Shown: in pieces, positions 9,656 to 19,866 of the stretch | Layout of the letters: every line of letters begins with the position of its first letter | How positions within the stretch are numbered: position 1 is the stretch's first letter | NCBI GenBank assembly: GCA_019247195.1 | Contig: JAFAPI010000073.1 | Coordinates: forward strand, 1 to 64,000 | Source: Gammaproteobacteria bacterium | GTDB taxonomy: Bacteria; Pseudomonadota; Gammaproteobacteria; Steroidobacterales; Steroidobacteraceae | Direction of reading: 5' to 3' | Length of the DNA: 64,000 bases | The notes under the pieces: generated by a model | Databases searched by the model: none | Told to the model about the DNA's origin: nothing | Seen by the model: only the letters and a program-made list of their open reading frames with translations | Program-made: the position numbers and the translations under genes

Positions 9656-11017
9656 TCAGGGGGCCGTCAACTCGAGCGTCGCACCGGCCTGGTTGACGGT
9701 GGTCAGTACGATCGGCCGCCGCCATACCCGGTGCACGTAGTCCAGGACCTTACGGCTGCGCTCGAGGTCCAGCCCGCGACCGTCCACGCTCGAGTCGTGC
9801 ATCAGCTCGAGCGTGCCGTCGGTGCGGACATGCTTGGCCAGCACCACGGGGGCACCGAAGTTGTACTTGGGGGCGAGCAGCGCCTCATGCAGCGCCGGCA
9901 GCTCCGGGGTGAGCACCTTGATCTGCCCGTCGCTGCGCGCGCTGTAGCGGAACAGGCCGAGCTCCTCGGCGAGCTCGCGGGTCAGGTGGTTGCGCACGAA
10001 GGCGAAATCATCGTCCTCCACCATGATGCGCCGCGCCGCCTCCAGCCCCTGGGTCGCGATGATCTTCTCCCACATCGCAAAGCCGAGGTGGTAGGGATTG
10101 ACGCTGAGGGCCACCTGCTGCTCCGCGGCGATCGGCCGCACGACGTCCGAGTGGCACTTGATGGCATCGACGTACGCCTGCTGCGGGATGAAGTCCGCCT
10201 CGCGCAGCAGACGGGCATGCCAGTACGACGCCCAGCCCTCGTTCATGATCTGAGTGGCGAAGACCGGGTAGAAGTAAAAGGACTCCTCGCGCACCGCGAG
10301 GAAGATGTCACGCTCCCAGCTCTCCATCTCCGGGGCGTAGTTGGCGATGAACCACAGCAGGTCGCGCTCGGGGTGCGGGGGGACCGGCGCGCGCTTGCGC
10401 GGCTCGTTGCCGCCGGCGCCGTGCGCGGGGTCCAGCGCGGCGAAGCGCCGCCGGAAGGCGTCATCCACCAGGCTGCGCGGCGGCTCGAGGTACTCCGGGT
10501 AGCGCGGGCGGCGCAGCGCCAGGTCGACGTCGATGTGCTGCTCGAGCGCGAGGGCGGCGTCGAGCGTCGCCTCGACGCGCTGCGCGCCGTGCGCCTCGCT
10601 CGCCTGGCTGATCTGGCGTGCGTGCTGCGCGGCGTGCTCGACGATTCGCTCGCTCACCTGCTCCTGGCAGCGTCGGAACAACAGGTTGTTGCAGGAGAAG
10701 TCGGCGTGGCCGAGCACGTGCGCGCTGACCAGGATGTTCTCCGCCAGCCCGTTGCTCTCGGCGAGGTAGGCATGGCCCGGATTGCCGGGGAAGACCACCT
10801 CGAACAGCCGCGAGTGCCCCATGTGGCGCTGGATGAGCTGGTAGATGTAGCGCACGCCGAAGGACCAGTGCGGCATACGCACCGGCAGGCCGTACACGGC
10901 AATCTCCATCATGAAGCTGTCGGGCACCGCCTCGAAATCCACCGGGTGGAAACGCAGCCCGGAGCGGGTAGCCAGCTCCTCGATGCGTCGCAGGTAGCTG
11001 TGCCACTCGCCGCTCAC
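9656..11017 (-). CDS. SpoVR family protein (YcgB-like)
   Basis: A 453-residue member of the SpoVR/YcgB family, named for a Bacillus spore-cortex protein but widespread in non-sporulating proteobacteria. Seen in the sequence: FHPVDFEAVPDSFMMEIAVYGLPVRMPHWSFG-type N-terminal region, ESNGLAENILVSAHVLGHADFSCNNLLF near residue 85-115, LLWFIANYAPEMESWERDIFLAVREESFYFYP near 215-250, and NEGWASYWHARLLREADFI. Its start is the GTG at 11017, which overlaps the DUF444 stop as GTGA; a longer in-frame start at 11065 lies inside the upstream gene. As the last gene of prkA-yeaH-spoVR it probably acts in the same starvation or stress response. The biochemical function is unknown. Confidence 0.93.
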   Translation of the reverse strand: MSGEWHSYLRRIEELATRSGLRFHPVDFEAVPDSFMMEIAVYGLPVRMPHWSFGVRYIYQLIQRHMGHSRLFEVVFPGNPGHAYLAESNGLAENILVSAHVLGHADFSCNNLLFRRCQEQVSERIVEHAAQHARQISQASEAHGAQRVEATLDAALALEQHIDVDLALRRPRYPEYLEPPRSLVDDAFRRRFAALDPAHGAGGNEPRKRAPVPPHPERDLLWFIANYAPEMESWERDIFLAVREESFYFYPVFATQIMNEGWASYWHARLLREADFIPQQAYVDAIKCHSDVVRPIAAEQQVALSVNPYHLGFAMWEKIIATQGLEAARRIMVEDDDFAFVRNHLTRELAEELGLFRYSARSDGQIKVLTPELPALHEALLAPKYNFGAPVVLAKHVRTDGTLELMHDSSVDGRGLDLERSRKVLDYVHRVWRRPIVLTTVNQAGATLELTAP

Positions 11018-12171
11018 GTCGCCTCGCGCGCCTGGTTGCTGAAGAAGTGCTTGACGGCGCCCCACACGTCGTCGAAGTCATTCAGCGCGTAGCTGCCGGC
11101 GGCGCAGCCGGCGGCGGTGAGCTCGGCGAACAGCTTGCCGGTCTCGGTCTCGAGCTGGCGCGAGATGCCGGAGGACACCTCCACGTAGCCGGTGTAGCAC
11201 ATGTCCGCCGCGACGGTGGCGAGCGCGCTGCGCGCCTCGCCCGCGTCGCTGACCGAGTTATCCCCGTCGGAGGCGTAGAAGAGATAGATGTTGCTGCGCG
11301 AGGGGCTGTAGCGCGCCTGCATGATCTCGCGCACCTTGAGCAGTCCGGTAGAGGCGACGGTGCCGCCGCTGCCGGTGACCTGGAAGAAGTCCGGCTCGTT
11401 GAACTCCCAGGCCTCGGTCGTGTGGGCGACGAACACCGTCTCGAGCGAGCGGTACTCGCGGCGCAGGCCCTGCACCACCCAGAAAAAGAAGGTCTTCGCC
11501 AGCTTGCGGTCCCGATCGGACATGCTGCCGGACACGTCCAGCAGGAAGAACACCACCGCGTGCACCGCCGGCTGGCGGCGCCGCGCCAGCTGGCGAAAGC
11601 GCAGATCCTCGTCGGTGAAGGTCGGGGTGGCCCCGGGCGCGCCGCGCCGCTTCACCAGCTCCTTGAAGGAGCGGCGCCGGTCGAGCCGGGAGCGCGCACC
11701 GCGCCGATCCCACCCCTCGCGCACCCAGTCGCTCTCTTCGGAGGGGCCGGTGCGCGCCTTGAGGTTCGGCAGCTGCATCTCCTCCCACAGCCAGTCGACG
11801 ATGTCGTCCACCTTGAACTCGAGCAGCAGCTGCACGCCGCCGTCCTCGCGGCCGCCGGCACCCTTCTCGCCCGGGCCCTGCTGGCGGCTGGGGTCGGCGA
11901 AGGTGTCGCCCGGCTTGGCCTTGCCCTGGCCCGCGCCCTGGCGCTCCTCGGGGGAGCGCAGGCGGAAGTGATAATGCTCGAGCATGCGCACCGGGATGCG
12001 CACGGTGCGCGCCCCGGCATTGATCACATCGCCGCCGGCGATGATCTCCGGCAGGTTGGCGCGCACCGCCTCGCGCACCTTCTCGTCGTGGCGCAGCCAG
12101 TCGCGCGCGCCGCGCGAGAACAGCTCGTACCACTTGCCGCCTGACTCGCCCTTGGGGTCGTCTCCGTCCAT
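11014..12171 (-). CDS. yeaH: YeaH/YhbH family protein (DUF444)
   Basis: A 385-residue DUF444 protein. The C-terminal half carries a von Willebrand A-like fold with a MIDAS-like motif (FFLLDVSGSMSDRDR near residue 205) and YRSLETVFVAHTTEAWE. The N-terminal half holds VIRIPVRMLEHYHFR-like and a low-complexity linker rich in glycine, lysine and proline (GAGQGKAKPGDTF). In E. coli, YeaH is co-expressed with the kinase YeaG and the pair adjusts the response to nitrogen starvation; its partner is again the neighbour here. It starts 28 bases after prkA and its stop overlaps the spoVR start. The sequence is slightly shorter than E. coli YeaH (about 427). Confidence 0.93.
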   Translation of the reverse strand: MDGDDPKGESGGKWYELFSRGARDWLRHDEKVREAVRANLPEIIAGGDVINAGARTVRIPVRMLEHYHFRLRSPEERQGAGQGKAKPGDTFADPSRQQGPGEKGAGGREDGGVQLLLEFKVDDIVDWLWEEMQLPNLKARTGPSEESDWVREGWDRRGARSRLDRRRSFKELVKRRGAPGATPTFTDEDLRFRQLARRRQPAVHAVVFFLLDVSGSMSDRDRKLAKTFFFWVVQGLRREYRSLETVFVAHTTEAWEFNEPDFFQVTGSGGTVASTGLLKVREIMQARYSPSRSNIYLFYASDGDNSVSDAGEARSALATVAADMCYTGYVEVSSGISRQLETETGKLFAELTAAGCAAGSYALNDFDDVWGAVKHFFSNQAREAT

Positions 12172-12199: not shown

Positions 12200-14161
12200 C
12201 TACTCCTGCGCCAGGAGGGTCGTCACGTAGCTCAGGGCCTCCTTGGCGCTGTGCTCGTCGTAGCCGTACTCGGTCACCAGCCGCTGCTGCACCACCGAGA
12301 TCTTCTGCCGCGCCTCCTCGTCCGGGCGCGCCGTGGAGGTCACCAGGCGCAGCACGTCGCGGCGCTCCTCGAACAGGTACTGCTCGATCGCCTCGCGCAT
12401 GCGCGCGTGGCTCGCCAGCTTGAACTTCTCGCCGGCCTTGAAGGCCACCATCGCCTTGCGCACCACTTCCTGGCGGAAGGACAGCTTGCCGGAGTCCGAG
12501 ACCTTGATCTTCTCCTCCACCGAGCGCAGGAAACGCTCGTCCGCGGCGCGGTTCTCGCCGGTGATCGGATCGGTGACCTGGCGGTGGTCGAGCGAGGCCT
12601 CCACCTCATCGAGGTACTTCTCCAGCAGCTGCTGCGCCTCCTCCTCGAAGGAGGCGAACATGGCGCGGTGCACGTCCTCCTTGACCCAGCGGTTGTAGAA
12701 TTCCTTGCGCGCCGTCACCAGGTGGTCGATCCAGGCTTTTTTCTGCTTGGCGTCCATGCGCGCATCGCTCTCGATCGAGTCCTTGAGCGCGAGCAGCAGC
12801 TCCATGCTGGTCAGGCTGTGGGTGTTGCCGCGGGTGATGGCATTGGAGATGGCATTGATGACGAAGCGCGGGCTGACGCCGTTCATGCCCTCCTCGGGGA
12901 CCTCGGCACGCAGCCGCGCGGCCTCGCTGTCCGGCACCCCCTCCACCGCCTCGCCGGCATAGAGGCGCAGCTTCTTGGGCAGGTCGAGGCCCTCGCGCTC
13001 CGGCTTGGCGAGCCGCGTCAGGATGGCGAACACCGCGGCCAGGTTGAGCACGTGCGGGTCGAGGTGCACGTTGCGGAACGCCGGGGCACCGGATACCAGC
13101 TTCTGGTAGATGCGCGACTCGTCGCGATAGGACAGCGCGTAGGGGATCTTGATGATCACCATGCGGTCGAGCAGCGCCTCGTTCTCCTTCTCCTGCAGGA
13201 ACTTGTGGAACTCGGCGAGGTTGGTGTGGGCCAGGATGGTCTCGTCGAGGTGGATGAGCGGGAAGCGCGATACCTTGACGTTCTTCTCCTGGGTCAGGGT
13301 CAGCAGCAGGTAGAGGAACTCGCGCTTCACCTTCAGGATCTCGATCATCTCCAGCACGCCGCGGCTCGCCGCGTACACCGCGCCGGACCAGGACCAGGCG
13401 CGCGGGTCGCCCTCGTCGCCGATCTGCGCGACCTTGGCGAGGTCCACCGAGCCGACCAGGTCGGCGATGTCGGCGGTGGTCGGATCGTGCGGGGCATAGG
13501 TACCGATGCCGACGCGCGAGGCCTCGGCGAGGAATACCCGCTCGACCGGCACGCGCACGAAATCACCCTCGAACTCGCGCTCGACGAAGTCGCGCGCCCA
13601 GGGCGACAGCTCGCCTTGGATGTGCACCCCGTAGCGCTCGCGGAACTCGGCGCGCAGGCTGGTGGGGATCAGGTTGAGCGGGTTCTCGCGCAGCGGCGAG
13701 CCGCGGATCGCGTACAGCGCTCCCTCATCGGTGCGGCTGTACTCCTCCAGCCCCCGCTTGAGCAGGATGGCGAGGGTCGACTTGCCGCCCGAGGGGGGGC
13801 CGAGCAGCAGCAGCAGGCGTCGCCCGACGTCCGAGCCGGCCGCGGCCGCCTTGAAGTAGTCCACCACCCGGGACAACGGCTCGTCGATACCGAACAGCTC
13901 GCGCTTGAACAGGTCGCGCGCGCGCAGGTTCTCCGCCAGCTCGGGCGCGGCGGCCCGGCCATGCCAGCGCAGCATGTCCCAGATGTATTCGTGGCTGGTG
14001 CGGGCGAGTGCAGCCGGGTTGGCCGGCAGGACGTTGCTGAGGAACTCGCCGAAGGTGCCTTCCCAGCGCTGCGCGCGGTGCAGGCGGCTGAATGAACTCA
14101 GGCTGTCGATGAAGTCGGCAGTGCTGCCGTGGGACTTCTGATCACCAGCGAGCGAACGCAT
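12200..14161 (-). CDS. prkA: PrkA family serine protein kinase (YeaG-like)
   Basis: A 653-residue PrkA protein: an AAA-type ATPase module followed by the PrkA-specific C-terminal domain. The Walker A is GPPSGGKST at residues 121-129; HEYIWDML precedes it at 57-64. Later blocks are YAIRGSPLRENPLNLIP, ERVFLAEASRVGIGTYAP and VKREFLYLLLTLTQEKN, and IVVTGENRAADERFLRSVEEKIKVSDSGKLSFRQEV-like C-terminal text. In Bacillus and E. coli, PrkA/YeaG has been reported as a serine kinase, and in Bacillus as an AAA protease, important in starvation. The ATG at 14161 is preceded by AGGGAAGGA; an in-frame start at 14191 is less likely. First gene of the prkA-yeaH-spoVR operon. Confidence 0.95.
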   Translation of the reverse strand: MRSLAGDQKSHGSTADFIDSLSSFSRLHRAQRWEGTFGEFLSNVLPANPAALARTSHEYIWDMLRWHGRAAAPELAENLRARDLFKRELFGIDEPLSRVVDYFKAAAAGSDVGRRLLLLLGPPSGGKSTLAILLKRGLEEYSRTDEGALYAIRGSPLRENPLNLIPTSLRAEFRERYGVHIQGELSPWARDFVEREFEGDFVRVPVERVFLAEASRVGIGTYAPHDPTTADIADLVGSVDLAKVAQIGDEGDPRAWSWSGAVYAASRGVLEMIEILKVKREFLYLLLTLTQEKNVKVSRFPLIHLDETILAHTNLAEFHKFLQEKENEALLDRMVIIKIPYALSYRDESRIYQKLVSGAPAFRNVHLDPHVLNLAAVFAILTRLAKPEREGLDLPKKLRLYAGEAVEGVPDSEAARLRAEVPEEGMNGVSPRFVINAISNAITRGNTHSLTSMELLLALKDSIESDARMDAKQKKAWIDHLVTARKEFYNRWVKEDVHRAMFASFEEEAQQLLEKYLDEVEASLDHRQVTDPITGENRAADERFLRSVEEKIKVSDSGKLSFRQEVVRKAMVAFKAGEKFKLASHARMREAIEQYLFEERRDVLRLVTSTARPDEEARQKISVVQQRLVTEYGYDEHSAKEALSYVTTLLAQE

Positions 14162-14754
14162 CGTTCCTTCCCTCCCGTCAGAGCTGAGCACGGGCGCCGG
14201 TGTGTGCCGGCGATGCCAGCGTTCTTGAACTTAGTCCCTAGCCCTCGTACAAAAAGTGATGCCCTTCCGATCCTGAGGCTCCGATTACGTTATGACGGTC
14301 ACAGCTGCAGATTGTTCACTGCGCCATGCCGTCGCGCCACCTCCGGCGAGGCGGCGGCGCGTCTTCGGCGCACGCTCCGTCGCGCGACTTCTTTAAGTGC
14401 CTGATTGCTAAGCCTAGGCCATAAAGCGCGCGCGGGGGGTAGGCGAAGCCCGCGCCGGCGCTGCGCTGCCGCTGACAGGCGCGGCGGACGCAGCGTCGCG
14501 CGCCGCGCGCCGCGTGTCCGCGCGCGCGGCTGAAGCGAGCAGTGCGTTCCGATTTGCGCGGCGAGGCGCACGCGCGCTGAGCCAGCCTCTCGTTATTGTG
14601 AACTGTCGCACTGCGGCGCACACGAGGCTACATATCCTGCAAGCGCGGGATTTTGCGCGTCCAGGCAAAGGCTTGCCCGGCCGGCACGCGCGCAACCGCC
14701 CGCGCCGGCCTATCCCGCGGCGCGCGCAACGATCGAATTTTTCGGAGAGCGCCT
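14162..14754. other. Intergenic region between the divergent prkA and TonB-like genes
   Basis: About 590 bases with no gene I can support. It must hold promoters for two divergent operons, but I find no well-matched sigma-70 or sigma-54 promoter. In the prkA leader CGCCGG (14195-14200) and CCGGCG (14207-14212) form a small hairpin around TGTGTG. The central part (about 14410-14560) is a run of alternating GC able to form several hairpins, and the flanks are less GC-rich. A short ORF-like frame in 14514-14754 is only upstream extension of the TonB-like gene. Confidence 0.5.
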
Positions 14755-16848
14755 GTGGCCAGTGCACCCTCGACCGCCCCCCGCAGCAAGGACGCTGCCA
14801 GTTCCGCGCCCGCGAGCACCGCGGCGAGCTCCCAGCCGGCGGTCGACATCACGGCCATCACCACGCGCGACGATTTCCTGCTCGAACTCGGACAGATCCT
14901 CGACGGCCAGGCCTCGGTGCGGCCGGTCGACACGCCGGAGGCGGCCCTGGAGACGCTGAGCGCGGGCAAGCGCGCGCAGCTGCTGGTGATCGACGCGCGC
15001 GCGGTCGCCGATCTCAAGGCGGCGGTGGATGCAGCGGCGGCGCGCGCGCCGCGCGCCGTCGTGCTGGTGTTCGCCGAGGCGGCGGCCGAGAAGCAGGTGG
15101 GCACCGCCCTCAAGGGCAGCAAGGTATTCGCCGTGCTGGCGACGCCCCTCGACGTGCGCAAGACCCAGGCTGTGTTCGAGGGTGCGATCAGCGAAGCCCT
15201 GGCCAGCAAGGCCGCACCGACCGCGCCGCCTGCCGCTGCGGCCGGCGAGCTCTCGATCGGCGCTTTCCGGCCGGCCACCGCCACTCCGTACGAGCAGCGC
15301 GAACGGCGCAGCGCCGTGGCGCGCCTGCCCCTCATCCTCGCCGCGCTCGCGGTGCTGGCTCTCGCCGGGGGCGGCTACTGGTATTTCACCAAGCAGCGCC
15401 CCGCGACGAGCGCCGCGCCGGCCGCACCGGTGAGCGCCCCGGTGCGCTCCGCCGCGCCGAGCGCGCCCAAGGACGACTCGGTGCCCACCGCGCCGGCCGC
15501 CGACACGCTGATCGTGCAGGGCAAGGTGGATGATCTGCTCGAGAAGGCCCGCCTCGCCATGCACGACCGCCGCTTCACGGAGCCGGCCGGTGACAATGCC
15601 CTGGTGTATTACCGCTCCGCCGCGGCGGCCGCACCGCAGAACGGCGAGGCGCGCGACGGCCTGCAGCGCATCGCCGGCGTGCTCGGCGGGCGCTTCGAGG
15701 AGGCGCTGAACGCGGGCCGGTTCGATGAGGCGGCGCAGACGCTCGCGAACTTCAAGGCCGCGGTACCCGGGGATGCGCGCAGCGCAGCCTTTGAGCAGCG
15801 CCTGTACGCCGCAGCGATCGCGCGCGCGCTGGCCGACGCCAACCTCGATCGCGCCGCGGCGCTGGTGCGCCAGGCGCAGCAGGCGGGCACCGTGCCCGCC
15901 GATCAGCTCGCCAAGTGGCGCGGTGATGTGGCGCGGCACGTCGAGGACGCCAAGGTGACCCGCCTGGTGGGCCTGATCGGCGATCGCATCCGCGAGGGCA
16001 AGCTGAACGACGCCGACGACAGCGCCAAGGTCTACCTGCAGCAGCTGCTGGCGGCGGCGCCGACCAATGCCGCGACGGCGCGCGCAACCAAGGACGTACA
16101 AGGCGCGTACCTGCGCAAGGCGCGCGAGGCGGCGCTCGCCAAGAACACACCCGAGGAGGAGCGCTGGCTGGCCGAGGCGCGCAGTCTGGGCATGAAGCCG
16201 GCAGAGATTGCCGCGTTCCAGCGCGACCTGAGCAGCGCGCGACAGAAGGCGCAGCAGGCCGAGAGTGAGCGGCAGCTGGCGCTGGCGCGCGAGCGTCTGC
16301 GTGACGGACGCCTGACGGACCCGGCCCAGGACAGCGCCGCGTTCTATCTGGGCCAGGTGCAGGCGGCGGATCCGAACAGCACCGCGCTCGCCGAGGTCGG
16401 CCACGATCTCGCGGCGCGGCTTCTCGAGCGGGCGCGCGCGAGCGCCGGCGCCGGCAAGAGCAGCGAGGCCGACCTCGCTCTCGCCAGGCGCTGGGGCGCG
16501 GCCGAGCGCGACATCCAGGCGGTCCAGCAGCTGGCGAGTGCGCCTAAGGCGGCCACCGTCGACCCGGCCGTACTCGCAGCGACCCTCAAGCGCCTGCGTG
16601 CCCCGCCGCCGGAATACCCGCAGAGCGCCCTCGACCGGCGCATCACCGGCACGGTATCGATCGCCTTCACGGTCGACGTGACCGGCGAGCCGCGCGACAT
16701 TCACGTGGTGGAGGCCACCCCGCCGGGCGTGTTCGACAAGGCGGCCCTGGCCGCGGTGCACCACTGGCGCTACGCGCCGATGGTGGTCAACGGCACGCCG
16801 ATGGAAGTGCCCGTGCGCACGCTGATGCGCTTCGAGCTGCCGAAATAG
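14755..16848 (+). CDS. Energy transducer TonB-like protein with degenerate receiver domain
   Basis: A 697-residue protein with an unusual build. Residues 25-150 look like a response-regulator receiver fold (alternating helices and strands, QLLVIDAR near 80, VLVFAEAA near 105, VFAVLATPLD near 125) but lack the acidic pair and the KP lysine, so it is probably inactive in phosphotransfer. A single membrane span (LPLILAALAVLALAGGG) is near residue 190. A long helical, alanine-rich region of TPR-like repeats follows (240-600), then a TonB C-terminal domain from PPPEYPQSALDRRITGTVSIAF to the end (615-697). I chose GTG at 14755 because GGAG stands upstream and the sequence before it is compositionally arbitrary. 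It heads a run of four genes with a CheA-like kinase, CheY and CheX. Confidence 0.8.
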   Translation: MASAPSTAPRSKDAASSAPASTAASSQPAVDITAITTRDDFLLELGQILDGQASVRPVDTPEAALETLSAGKRAQLLVIDARAVADLKAAVDAAAARAPRAVVLVFAEAAAEKQVGTALKGSKVFAVLATPLDVRKTQAVFEGAISEALASKAAPTAPPAAAAGELSIGAFRPATATPYEQRERRSAVARLPLILAALAVLALAGGGYWYFTKQRPATSAAPAAPVSAPVRSAAPSAPKDDSVPTAPAADTLIVQGKVDDLLEKARLAMHDRRFTEPAGDNALVYYRSAAAAAPQNGEARDGLQRIAGVLGGRFEEALNAGRFDEAAQTLANFKAAVPGDARSAAFEQRLYAAAIARALADANLDRAAALVRQAQQAGTVPADQLAKWRGDVARHVEDAKVTRLVGLIGDRIREGKLNDADDSAKVYLQQLLAAAPTNAATARATKDVQGAYLRKAREAALAKNTPEEERWLAEARSLGMKPAEIAAFQRDLSSARQKAQQAESERQLALARERLRDGRLTDPAQDSAAFYLGQVQAADPNSTALAEVGHDLAARLLERARASAGAGKSSEADLALARRWGAAERDIQAVQQLASAPKAATVDPAVLAATLKRLRAPPPEYPQSALDRRITGTVSIAFTVDVTGEPRDIHVVEATPPGVFDKAALAAVHHWRYAPMVVNGTPMEVPVRTLMRFELPK

Positions 16849-16867
16849 ACGATCAGGAGAGACGACC

Positions 16868-19003
16868 ATGATGCCCGCCGCCGGCACTGACCGCCGCCGC
16901 CAACTGGTGACCGCCGCGATCGGTACCGCCCTGACGCTGGTCATGGGCCTGGTGCTGTTCTTCGGTTTCCGCCTCGCCACGCACATGCGTGCCGACATCA
17001 CCGCGCTGCAGGCGGCCAGCACGCTGCAGACCTACCCCGAGGAGATCTCGCACCAGCTGAACACGCTGCGCGATCGACTCGAGGTGCGCGCCTACGCCGG
17101 GCAGGCGCTCGCCGACCTGCAGAGCACCGTGCAGCGCTTCGACCAGGAGCTGCGCCAGATCAATGCCGCCGGTGACGTGGACGCCCCGCAGCTCGGGCGC
17201 GCGCTGCTGCTGTGGCACCAGTACGGCCCGGTGCTCGAGCCGGTCATCTCCTTCACCGGCCAGCCCTACGTCGACTCCGACAGCAGCGGCAGCTCACTGT
17301 CGCGCGAGGGACGCGCGCACTACGCCGCCGTGAAGCGCGCACAGCTGTTCGCCGCCGACAACGCCCGGCCGCTGCAGACGCAGCTCTCCACCCTCGCCCA
17401 GACCCTGCAGCGCACCTCCTCCGCCGCGGCCGCGCGGCTGCGCTCGCTGCTGCTCGGCGGTGTGCTGGCGGCGCTGGTGCTGGCCGGCGCGGCCGCCTAC
17501 TTCCAGTTCACCCGCGCGCGCCACGAGCGCGCGGCGCGCGAAGCACAGGAACAGACCCGCGACATCCTCAAGACGGTGCGTGAGGGCTTCTTCCTGCTCG
17601 ATGCCGACTATCGCATCGGCTCGGTGTGGTCGGACGCGCTCAGCAAGATGTTCGGTCGCGAGGACTTCGCCGGCCTGTCCTTCGAGGAGCTGCTGCAGGA
17701 GCTGGTATCGCCGGCCACCCTCGCCACCGCCACCAAGTACATCAAGCTGCTGTGGGGCGACCGCGCGCACGAGAACCTGATGAAGAGCATCAACCCGCTC
17801 GGCCAGCTCGAGATCACCATGGACAACGGGCACGGCGGCAAGGAGACGCGCTTCCTGCAGTTCGACTTCCATCGCGTGATGGGACCGCAGGGCATCAAGC
17901 ACGTGCTGTGCGCGGTGGGCGACATCACCTCGAGCGTGCTGCTGGCGCGCGAGCTGCACGAGTCGCAGGAGAACGCCAACGCGCAGCTGGACATGATGCT
18001 CGGCATGATGCACGTCGACCCGCTGCAGCTGGTGTCGTTCCTCGACACCGCCGAGACGGGGCTGAAACTGGTGAACACCATTCTCAAGGAGCCGGCGCGC
18101 ACCGACGCCGAGTTCCGCAAGAAGCTGAGCGGTCTGTTCCGCGAGCTGCACTCCATCAAGGGCGAGGCTTCGGCTCTGAACCTGAAGAGCGTCGCGAGCC
18201 GCGTGCATGCGCTCGAGGACATGGTGAGCGACTGCAAGAAGCGCCCCGAGCTCAGCGGCAGCGACTTCCTGCCGCTGGTGCTGAAGCTCGACGACCTGCT
18301 GGCGCACCTGCGCGGCATCCGCGAGATGGCCTCGCGGCTTACCGCGCTCAAGGACAGCGTGCCGGCCGCCCCGCCCGCTGCGGCACCCCGCGCCGAGCCG
18401 CCGCGTCCGGAACGCCGCAACGCCATCAAGGTCGAGGACCTGACGCCGATCCTGCAGTCGATGGCCGAGCGCCTCGCGCAGGATCATGCCAAGCGCTTCA
18501 AGCTGAAGCTCGCCGGGCTCGCCGAGGTGCCGAGCACCTACAGCGCCACCATCAAGGACTGCCTGATCCAGATGCTGCGCAACGCCGCGGTGCACGGCAT
18601 CGAGGCCCCCGAGGCGCGGCGTGCGGCCACCAAGGATGACGCCGGGCTGGTGCAGGTCGAATTCCGCAAGGTGGCCGAAGGGTACGAGCTGGTCTTCGAG
18701 GACGACGGCGCCGGCATCTCGGTCGAGGCGCTGCGCGCGGCGGCGCTGAAGAAGCAGCTGATCTCGGAAGAGGAAGCGGCGGGGATGGACAACCGCGCCA
18801 GCATGGCGCTCATCTTCCGCCCGGGCTTCTCCATCCAGGAGGACGTGTCCATGGACGCCGGCCGTGGCGTGGGCATGGACGTGGTGGCGCGCAGCGTCTA
18901 CGCCCTCGGCGGCAAGATCGGCGTGAGCACCCACCCCGGCAAGTACACGCGCTTCAAGATCGTGCTGCCGCCGGCGGATGCCGCCAGCAGCGCGGTCGCG
19001 TAG
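16868..19003 (+). CDS. Membrane-bound CheA-like HPt histidine kinase
   Basis: A 711-residue sensor kinase. Two membrane spans (near 13-33 and 198-218) enclose a periplasmic helical sensor domain. A PAS-like domain follows (KTVREGFFLLDADYRIGSVWSDAL onward, about 235-345), then an HPt domain with the phosphorylatable histidine at residue 428 (RELHSIKGEASAL). The C-terminal ATPase is CheA-type: N box QMLRNAAVHGIEAPE with Asn 572, and later DDGAGIS and GRGVGMDVVARSV. It lacks the DHp domain of ordinary kinases and the CheW-like regulatory and CheY-docking domains of true CheA. Its likely targets are the CheY and CheX encoded next. ATG with AGGAGAG upstream. Confidence 0.88.
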   Translation: MMPAAGTDRRRQLVTAAIGTALTLVMGLVLFFGFRLATHMRADITALQAASTLQTYPEEISHQLNTLRDRLEVRAYAGQALADLQSTVQRFDQELRQINAAGDVDAPQLGRALLLWHQYGPVLEPVISFTGQPYVDSDSSGSSLSREGRAHYAAVKRAQLFAADNARPLQTQLSTLAQTLQRTSSAAAARLRSLLLGGVLAALVLAGAAAYFQFTRARHERAAREAQEQTRDILKTVREGFFLLDADYRIGSVWSDALSKMFGREDFAGLSFEELLQELVSPATLATATKYIKLLWGDRAHENLMKSINPLGQLEITMDNGHGGKETRFLQFDFHRVMGPQGIKHVLCAVGDITSSVLLARELHESQENANAQLDMMLGMMHVDPLQLVSFLDTAETGLKLVNTILKEPARTDAEFRKKLSGLFRELHSIKGEASALNLKSVASRVHALEDMVSDCKKRPELSGSDFLPLVLKLDDLLAHLRGIREMASRLTALKDSVPAAPPAAAPRAEPPRPERRNAIKVEDLTPILQSMAERLAQDHAKRFKLKLAGLAEVPSTYSATIKDCLIQMLRNAAVHGIEAPEARRAATKDDAGLVQVEFRKVAEGYELVFEDDGAGISVEALRAAALKKQLISEEEAAGMDNRASMALIFRPGFSIQEDVSMDAGRGVGMDVVARSVYALGGKIGVSTHPGKYTRFKIVLPPADAASSAVA

Positions 19004-19015
19004 AGGAACCGCGCC

Positions 19016-19405
19016 ATGGGTAATGCGACAGTGAACGGCAAGCGTCCTTTCAAGCTGCTGATCGTCGATGACTCGAACATCATGCGGCGGCGCATCGAGC
19101 GCTCGCAGCAGTTCGAGGAACTGCAGCTGGTCGGCACCGCGGGCAACGGCTTCGAGGCGCTGGAGCTGTTCAAGAAGACCGACCCGGACGTCGTCACGAT
19201 GGACCTGACCATGCCGCGCATGGACGGCATCGAGTGCATCAGCAAGCTGGTCGCGCTCAAGCCCGCCGTGCGCATCCTGGTGATCTCCGCACTGGCGGAC
19301 AAGGCTACCGCCGTAGAGGCGATGGAAAAAGGCGCCAATGGCTTTCTCAACAAGCCCTTCACCGATCGCCAGCTGAATGAGGCGATCGCCGAGCTCATGC
19401 GCTAG
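19016..19405 (+). CDS. CheY-like response regulator
   Basis: A 129-residue single receiver domain with no output domain. Acidic pair Asp18-Asp19 (LLIVDDSNIMRRR), phosphoacceptor Asp63 (DVVTMDLTMPRMDG), the conserved Ser/Thr region (ILVISALADK) and the KP lysine (GFLNKPF) are all present, so it should be phosphorylated. It follows the HPt kinase by 12 bases, with AGAGGAA before its ATG, and precedes the CheX phosphatase by 14 bases. This implies a kinase-regulator-phosphatase circuit. The target is unknown: no flagellar, pilus or methyl-accepting chemotaxis genes are nearby. Confidence 0.93.
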   Translation: MGNATVNGKRPFKLLIVDDSNIMRRRIERSQQFEELQLVGTAGNGFEALELFKKTDPDVVTMDLTMPRMDGIECISKLVALKPAVRILVISALADKATAVEAMEKGANGFLNKPFTDRQLNEAIAELMR

Positions 19406-19419
19406 GCGAGGAAGCACGC

Positions 19420-19866
19420 ATGCTGTACGAACAAGAGCTCAAGACCTTCGTCGAGGGGACGACGAACTTCTTCGAGGTGGCGGCGCAGCATCCCGCCTCG
19501 ATCGGCTCGCCGTACCTGATGGAGGGCTCGCCCTCGGTGCACGAGTACACCGGCGTCATCAACATCTCCGGCAAGCGCGAGGGTGTGGTGTATTTCACCG
19601 CGCCCAAGGCGATGCTGACCGTGCTGCTGATGAAGATGCAGGAGAACGACTTCAGCCACGAGACCATGAAGGACCTAGTCGGGGAGGTAGCCAACACCAT
19701 CTCCGGTAACGCGCGCCGCGATTTCGGCCGCGATTTCGTCATCTCGGTCCCGAGCGTGCTGTCGGGCGAGAAGCCGGCGCTGCCGCAGCGGCCGGGTCTG
19801 CGCTCCTTCATCATCCCCATCAACTGGCGCAGCCACTCGGCCAAGCTGGTCGTGTCGCTCACCTGA
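19420..19866 (+). CDS. cheX: CheX-family phosphatase (chemotaxis protein)
   Basis: A 148-residue CheX/CheC-type protein. CheX dephosphorylates CheY-P through a conserved E-x2-N pair; here it is Glu89 and Asn92 in VGEVANTISGNAR, in the expected helix. Other family-like text: EYTGVINISGKREGVVYFTAPKAM near 43-65 and FIIPINWRSHSAKLVV at the end. One E-x2-N site is seen, as in CheX. It closes the operon of TonB-like protein, HPt kinase and CheY. A good Shine-Dalgarno (GAGGAAG) precedes the ATG. The function as phosphatase of the neighbouring CheY is strongly implied by context. Confidence 0.9.
   Translation: MLYEQELKTFVEGTTNFFEVAAQHPASIGSPYLMEGSPSVHEYTGVINISGKREGVVYFTAPKAMLTVLLMKMQENDFSHETMKDLVGEVANTISGNARRDFGRDFVISVPSVLSGEKPALPQRPGLRSFIIPINWRSHSAKLVVSLT

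Follow-up and report, generated by a model that had tools for sequence, protein, structure and literature searches.

All CheA proteins surveyed contain HPt, dimerisation, HATPase and CheW domains (PMC10542144), and in CheA-CheY-CheX chemosensory signalling a kinase with an HPt domain and a P4 ATPase works together with a single-domain CheY and a CheX bearing the E..N residues. Solitary CheX proteins, such as Vibrio VC0377 (PMC8789113), have also been described, as have nitrate sensors of the NarX/NarQ/McpN type, for which a G-x-x-R motif was reported (PMC8199190). The locus analysed here, which lies within a 64,000-nucleotide stretch of Steroidobacteraceae DNA (the window), shares a kinase with HPt and P4 ATPase, a single-domain CheY and a CheX with CheA-CheY-CheX signalling, the CheX family with the solitary proteins and the TonB_C fold with TonB. 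At positions 14755-19866 four genes, all on the plus strand and separated by gaps of 19, 12 and 14 nt, encode a TonB_C protein (697 aa, GTG start, 14755..16848; Pfam, AlphaFold2 and structure matches), a membrane histidine kinase (711 aa, 16868..19003; Pfam, AlphaFold2 and Foldseek), a CheY consisting of a single receiver domain with Asp63 (19016..19405; Pfam and motif count) and a CheX phosphatase with Glu89/Asn92 (19420..19866; Pfam, PDB CheX matches and motif count). This order and these positions had been proposed in the initial annotation, and the open reading frames and Pfam domains agree with it, as do the residues that it named in CheY and CheX. We consider it fairly probable (roughly 0.6) that these genes form a two-component circuit that is self-contained and uses CheA-type chemistry, in which the TonB_C protein is the likeliest partner or accessory in Steroidobacteraceae.

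The Pfam search assigned Hpt (1.2e-7) and HATPase_c (7.3e-12) domains to the kinase, and its AlphaFold2 model (pLDDT 85.5) consists of a transmembrane helix, a periplasmic four-helix bundle that forms the sensor part, a second transmembrane helix, a PAS domain (residues ~225-352), a long helix, an HPt domain (~385-497) with His428 and a CheA-P4-like ATPase (526-703), the transmembrane helices being assigned by reading of the model. The ATPase corresponds to CheA P4 both by sequence and by fold, P4 being its best structural match in Foldseek. Thus, the earlier description of a membrane kinase with HPt and CheA-type ATPase domains holds, with the addition of the PAS domain that it had missed. 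Among 74 kinase homologues the HxxKG motif was present in 72 and DDG.G in 73. The distance from the start of the G2-box motif to the end of the chain, scored by script in 73 of the 74 (the remaining homologue had no match to the motif and its C-terminus was left unscored), was 25-59 residues, which is too short for a P5/CheW domain. Consistently, Pfam found no CheW domain in the window kinase; it also gave no H-kinase_dim match, and no separate P3 was seen in the model, the models of the CheA dimerisation domain being of low sensitivity (PMC10542144). The kinase is not a CheA: unlike CheA, it is membrane-bound and carries its own sensor and PAS domain, it has no P3 in the model and its relatives (73/74) leave no room for P5.

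Pfam also identified the CheY (Response_reg, 8.9e-29) and the CheX (4.7e-18), the latter matching solved CheX structures in the PDB. The phospho-site motif together with KPF was found in 76/76 CheY homologues, and the E..N residues in 80/80 CheX homologues, from which we infer that CheX resets CheY by hydrolysing CheY~P. The view that the kinase, its regulator and its phosphatase make up a complete set is therefore supported at the level of a gene set with conserved catalytic residues. The two small genes are tightly packed, the CheX start lying a median of 5 nt past the CheY stop, and at or before that stop in 27 of 74 loci.

To find out how widely these genes are grouped, genome contigs were scanned with a CheX alignment, which gave 359 relatives, and the best 80 of these were taken. 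Kinase, CheY and CheX genes were found on one strand and in fixed order in 77 of the 80 loci; because these loci are the nearest to the query, this proportion need not apply to all 359. CheX was the sole search query, so gene adjacency was not selected for, and the same genes in the same order in so many genomes indicate that the grouping is more than chance. The exceptions were one locus with CheX only (L125), one with kinase and CheY on the opposite strand (L139) and one whose contig starts within CheY (L147). The gammaproteobacterial genera concerned include Steroidobacter, Cellvibrio, Marinobacter and Dichelobacter. In a 370-genome sample of the class, a CheX match at 1e-12 was obtained in 22 genomes, and the triad was present at all 13 strong-CheX loci taken; two weak-CheX loci lacked it, namely L069, on a 3.7 kb contig, and L070. 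At the latter (L070:8688-9624; a single solitary-CheX locus was read, with a weak CheX match), no kinase or CheY match adjoins CheX, unlike in the triad; a Fur/Zur-like gene, recognised by eye, precedes it. Outside the family of the window, no neighbour gene common to most lineages was seen near the triad. A lack of joint conservation, which the initial annotation had named as refuting, was not found; the conserved core, however, comprises three genes, the TonB gene having been seen with the triad in the window's family only and switching sides. Variants of the locus were also noted: L062:6242-13931 contains two tandem kinase-CheY-CheX sets and an extra CheX, and in many genus-mates (L038, L108, L115, L130 and others) a gene that by eye resembles kdpD, belonging to a 25-locus cluster, lies near the triad, downstream of CheX.

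CheA-type ATPase, CheY and CheX could also belong to a split chemosensory system whose other parts lie elsewhere in the genome. Unlike in chemosensory systems, no MCP, CheR, CheB or CheW gene was seen adjoining the triad, and the cassette contains none, as the initial annotation had stated. The genome itself (92% complete) has one MCP gene and three CheW matches, located on other contigs. However, the MCP gene is PilJ-like and lies on contig C77 with CheW and receiver genes of its own beside it, while a ChpA-like end lies on C220; a search for the remainder of a split chemosensory set, which the annotation had named as a possible source of these genes, thus led to PilJ-like and ChpA-like genes. 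No FliG match was detected in the same genome, and this, together with the separate Pil-Chp set, argues that the triad does not represent missing chemotaxis parts. Moreover, the kinase has no CheW domain for joining an array, and the triad recurs as a unit. Hence, we regard a split chemosensory system as largely refuted and most improbable. FliG was detected in no more than 13 of the 20 genomes with a triad that were examined, so flagella are dispensable.

In the same 20 genomes a PilT-family match over the cut-off was obtained in every case, which would fit an alternative in which the type IV pilus machinery receives, in addition to Pil-Chp, an input from CheY, so that a surface or nitrate-type cue would influence what the pili do. 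Many relatives' kinases carry a PilJ-type sensor domain, in several with a Pfam PilJ match, and 22 of the 74 contain a GRQR motif that fits the G-x-x-R of the nitrate sensors (PMC8199190); the PilJ-like and ChpA-like genes of the genome itself point in the same direction. The window kinase, however, has neither a Pfam PilJ match nor the GRQR motif, and the triad kinases differ from sensors of the NarX/NarQ/McpN type in having an HPt/P4 output instead of a DHp. PilT is also common, the same search matching E. coli and other controls, so the 20/20 count makes for a weak link, and the neighbours noticed around the triad in the loci read included no pilus gene. We therefore consider the pilus connection possible but doubtful. 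As a separate observation, one triad with a PilJ-type sensor in its kinase is adjoined, at L066:2947-6212, by a PP2C-Ser/Thr kinase gene and by a gene that looks NarK-like by eye.

The first gene of the cassette encodes a protein with a domain at either end that belongs to a known fold (AlphaFold2, pLDDT 85.0 overall and ~95 over residues 30-153). Its N-terminus (30-153) adopts a (beta-alpha)5 fold that matches solved receivers (3kcn, TM-score 0.73 by target), so that the annotated receiver-like character is confirmed. Strand 3 ends with Asp80, which does not vary among 29 homologues; since the acidic pair and the usual Lys have for the most part disappeared (by eye), we call this domain a pseudo-receiver despite the invariant Asp80. 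A transmembrane helix (191-213) is followed by helical repeats (251-595), which match solved TPR proteins, and by a TonB_C domain (~617-695; Pfam, 9e-18), which superimposes on solved TonB C-terminal domains (6i97_D, TM-score 0.91, 1.1 A) and is close in fold to FoxA-bound TonB. The GTG start of the gene is aligned in 14 genomes, and PADLOC returned only a marginal match (9e-4) to the protein. 

The transmembrane helix of TonB bears a Ser/His motif. The genuine TonB fold, along with four MotA/ExbB-family matches elsewhere in the genome, would be in line with the TonB_C protein being a true energy transducer and the circuit controlling energised outer-membrane transport. In contrast to TonB, though, the window protein has a pseudo-receiver predicted to be cytoplasmic, helical repeats take the place of the proline-rich spacer, no Ser/His pair was found in the transmembrane helix in the alignments read by eye, this helix is not conserved, and no ExbB/ExbD gene was seen beside the TonB_C gene. 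The TonB domain recognised at the outset is thus real, while its suggested role in energised transport has gained little support and seems unlikely to us. The protein may nevertheless couple in trans to ExbB/MotA-family proteins encoded elsewhere in the genome.

Within the family of the window, a TonB-type gene was located within 9 kb and on the same strand at no fewer than 71 of 87 triad-type CheX loci; among the matches listed, it lay upstream of the triad in 58 and downstream in 13, and 16 family loci had no TonB match nearby, some of them near a contig end and others not. None of the four CheX loci from other families of the order had a TonB neighbour (among the matches listed), nor was one seen in Cellvibrio, Dichelobacter or other loci outside the family. 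The TonB gene has been added to the triad at the level of the family, and the CheY target in the other lineages would accordingly be something else. In about 8 of the 58 upstream-TonB loci the spacing is ~1.3 kb longer. The gene filling the gap between the TonB gene and the triad in L126 and L156 encodes a protein kinase domain (Pfam), a similar gene occupies it in L129 and L142, and receiver-protein-kinase genes adjoin the triad in L060 and L071. TonB_C paralogues also occur at sites apart from the triad, and some of them form pairs with a receiver-Ser/Thr kinase, as at L153:5832-9340, where the two genes overlap; in the genome of the window (L152), the gene that comes after a TonB_C paralogue, close to the contig end, encodes a receiver, and no kinase domain was found in it. 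Such pairing suggests that the TonB_C protein may answer to that kinase. One may speculate, tentatively, about a five-gene cross-envelope relay in Steroidobacteraceae, in which the triad would drive the receiver-Ser/Thr kinase and the pseudo-receiver/TM/TonB_C protein, converting a His-Asp signal into Ser/Thr phosphorylation and passing it to the outer envelope. At L153, GspB-like and ExeA/GspA-like genes (by eye) adjoin the paralogue pair on the same strand.

On the other side of the cassette lie, divergently on the minus strand, genes for the PrkA/YeaG serine protein kinase (12200..14191; PrkA AAA, 3.6e-93), YeaH (DUF444; 11014..12171) and a SpoVR family protein (9656..11065). The divergent YeaG neighbour is kept in most genus-mates read, which could indicate that the cassette regulates this stress operon. 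Against this, the operon was not seen near the triads of Steroidobacter and Povalibacter, nor near those of other families, CheY lacks a DNA-binding domain, and the conserved upstream islands of the two operons differ. When 14 genus-mates were aligned, the stretch that separates yeaG from the TonB gene showed two such islands. That before yeaG (14290..14319, minus strand) shows a putative ECF-sigma-like spacing (GGAAC/GTGAAC, ~17 nt, GTC), judged by geometry only. The other, TGTGAACTGTCGCACTGC (consensus TGTGAAC.G...CACT; 14597..14614, plus strand), lies 141 nt before the TonB_C gene and is aligned in 14/14 genus-mates; the full 19-mer matches once in the window against 0.01 expected. A scan of loci totalling 1.75 Mb gave 36 matches to the consensus, each listed locus having one, and some loci cover the same genomes twice, so that these are not 36 independent genomes; the consensus precedes the TonB gene in the loci whose coordinates were compared. 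Control of the YeaG operon by the cassette therefore appears improbable.

We favour the self-contained circuit, which could operate as follows. The kinase would sense its signal through the periplasmic helical bundle and the PAS domain; as the signal would enter via the kinase itself, CheW, a receptor array, CheR and CheB would not be needed. The CheA-like ATPase would phosphorylate His428 of the HPt domain, which would hand the phosphoryl group to Asp63 of CheY, and CheX would hydrolyse CheY~P to reset the system. Since CheY has no output domain, CheY~P must act through a bound partner; the output would be diffusible CheY~P binding this partner, in Steroidobacteraceae probably, at a guess, the TonB_C protein, whose pseudo-receiver would lie in the cytoplasm and whose helical array and TonB-type tip would lie in the periplasm. 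We infer the phosphotransfer, the dephosphorylation and the membrane topology, the first two from conserved residues and the known chemistry of the families; to name the signal, like the output, is to guess.

Among open-licence PMC papers, we found none describing the module, which is in keeping with the earlier remark that no pathway with this exact set is described and is weak evidence of novelty. Our results suggest that a stand-alone sensor kinase, with a regulator and a phosphatase of its own, has been built anew from CheA-type chemistry, and that the three have stayed together in bacteria as unlike as Dichelobacter, Cellvibrio and Steroidobacter. If so, genes annotated as 'CheX' and 'CheY' in triad genomes would not be chemotaxis genes, and a three-protein system would become open to in vitro reconstitution.
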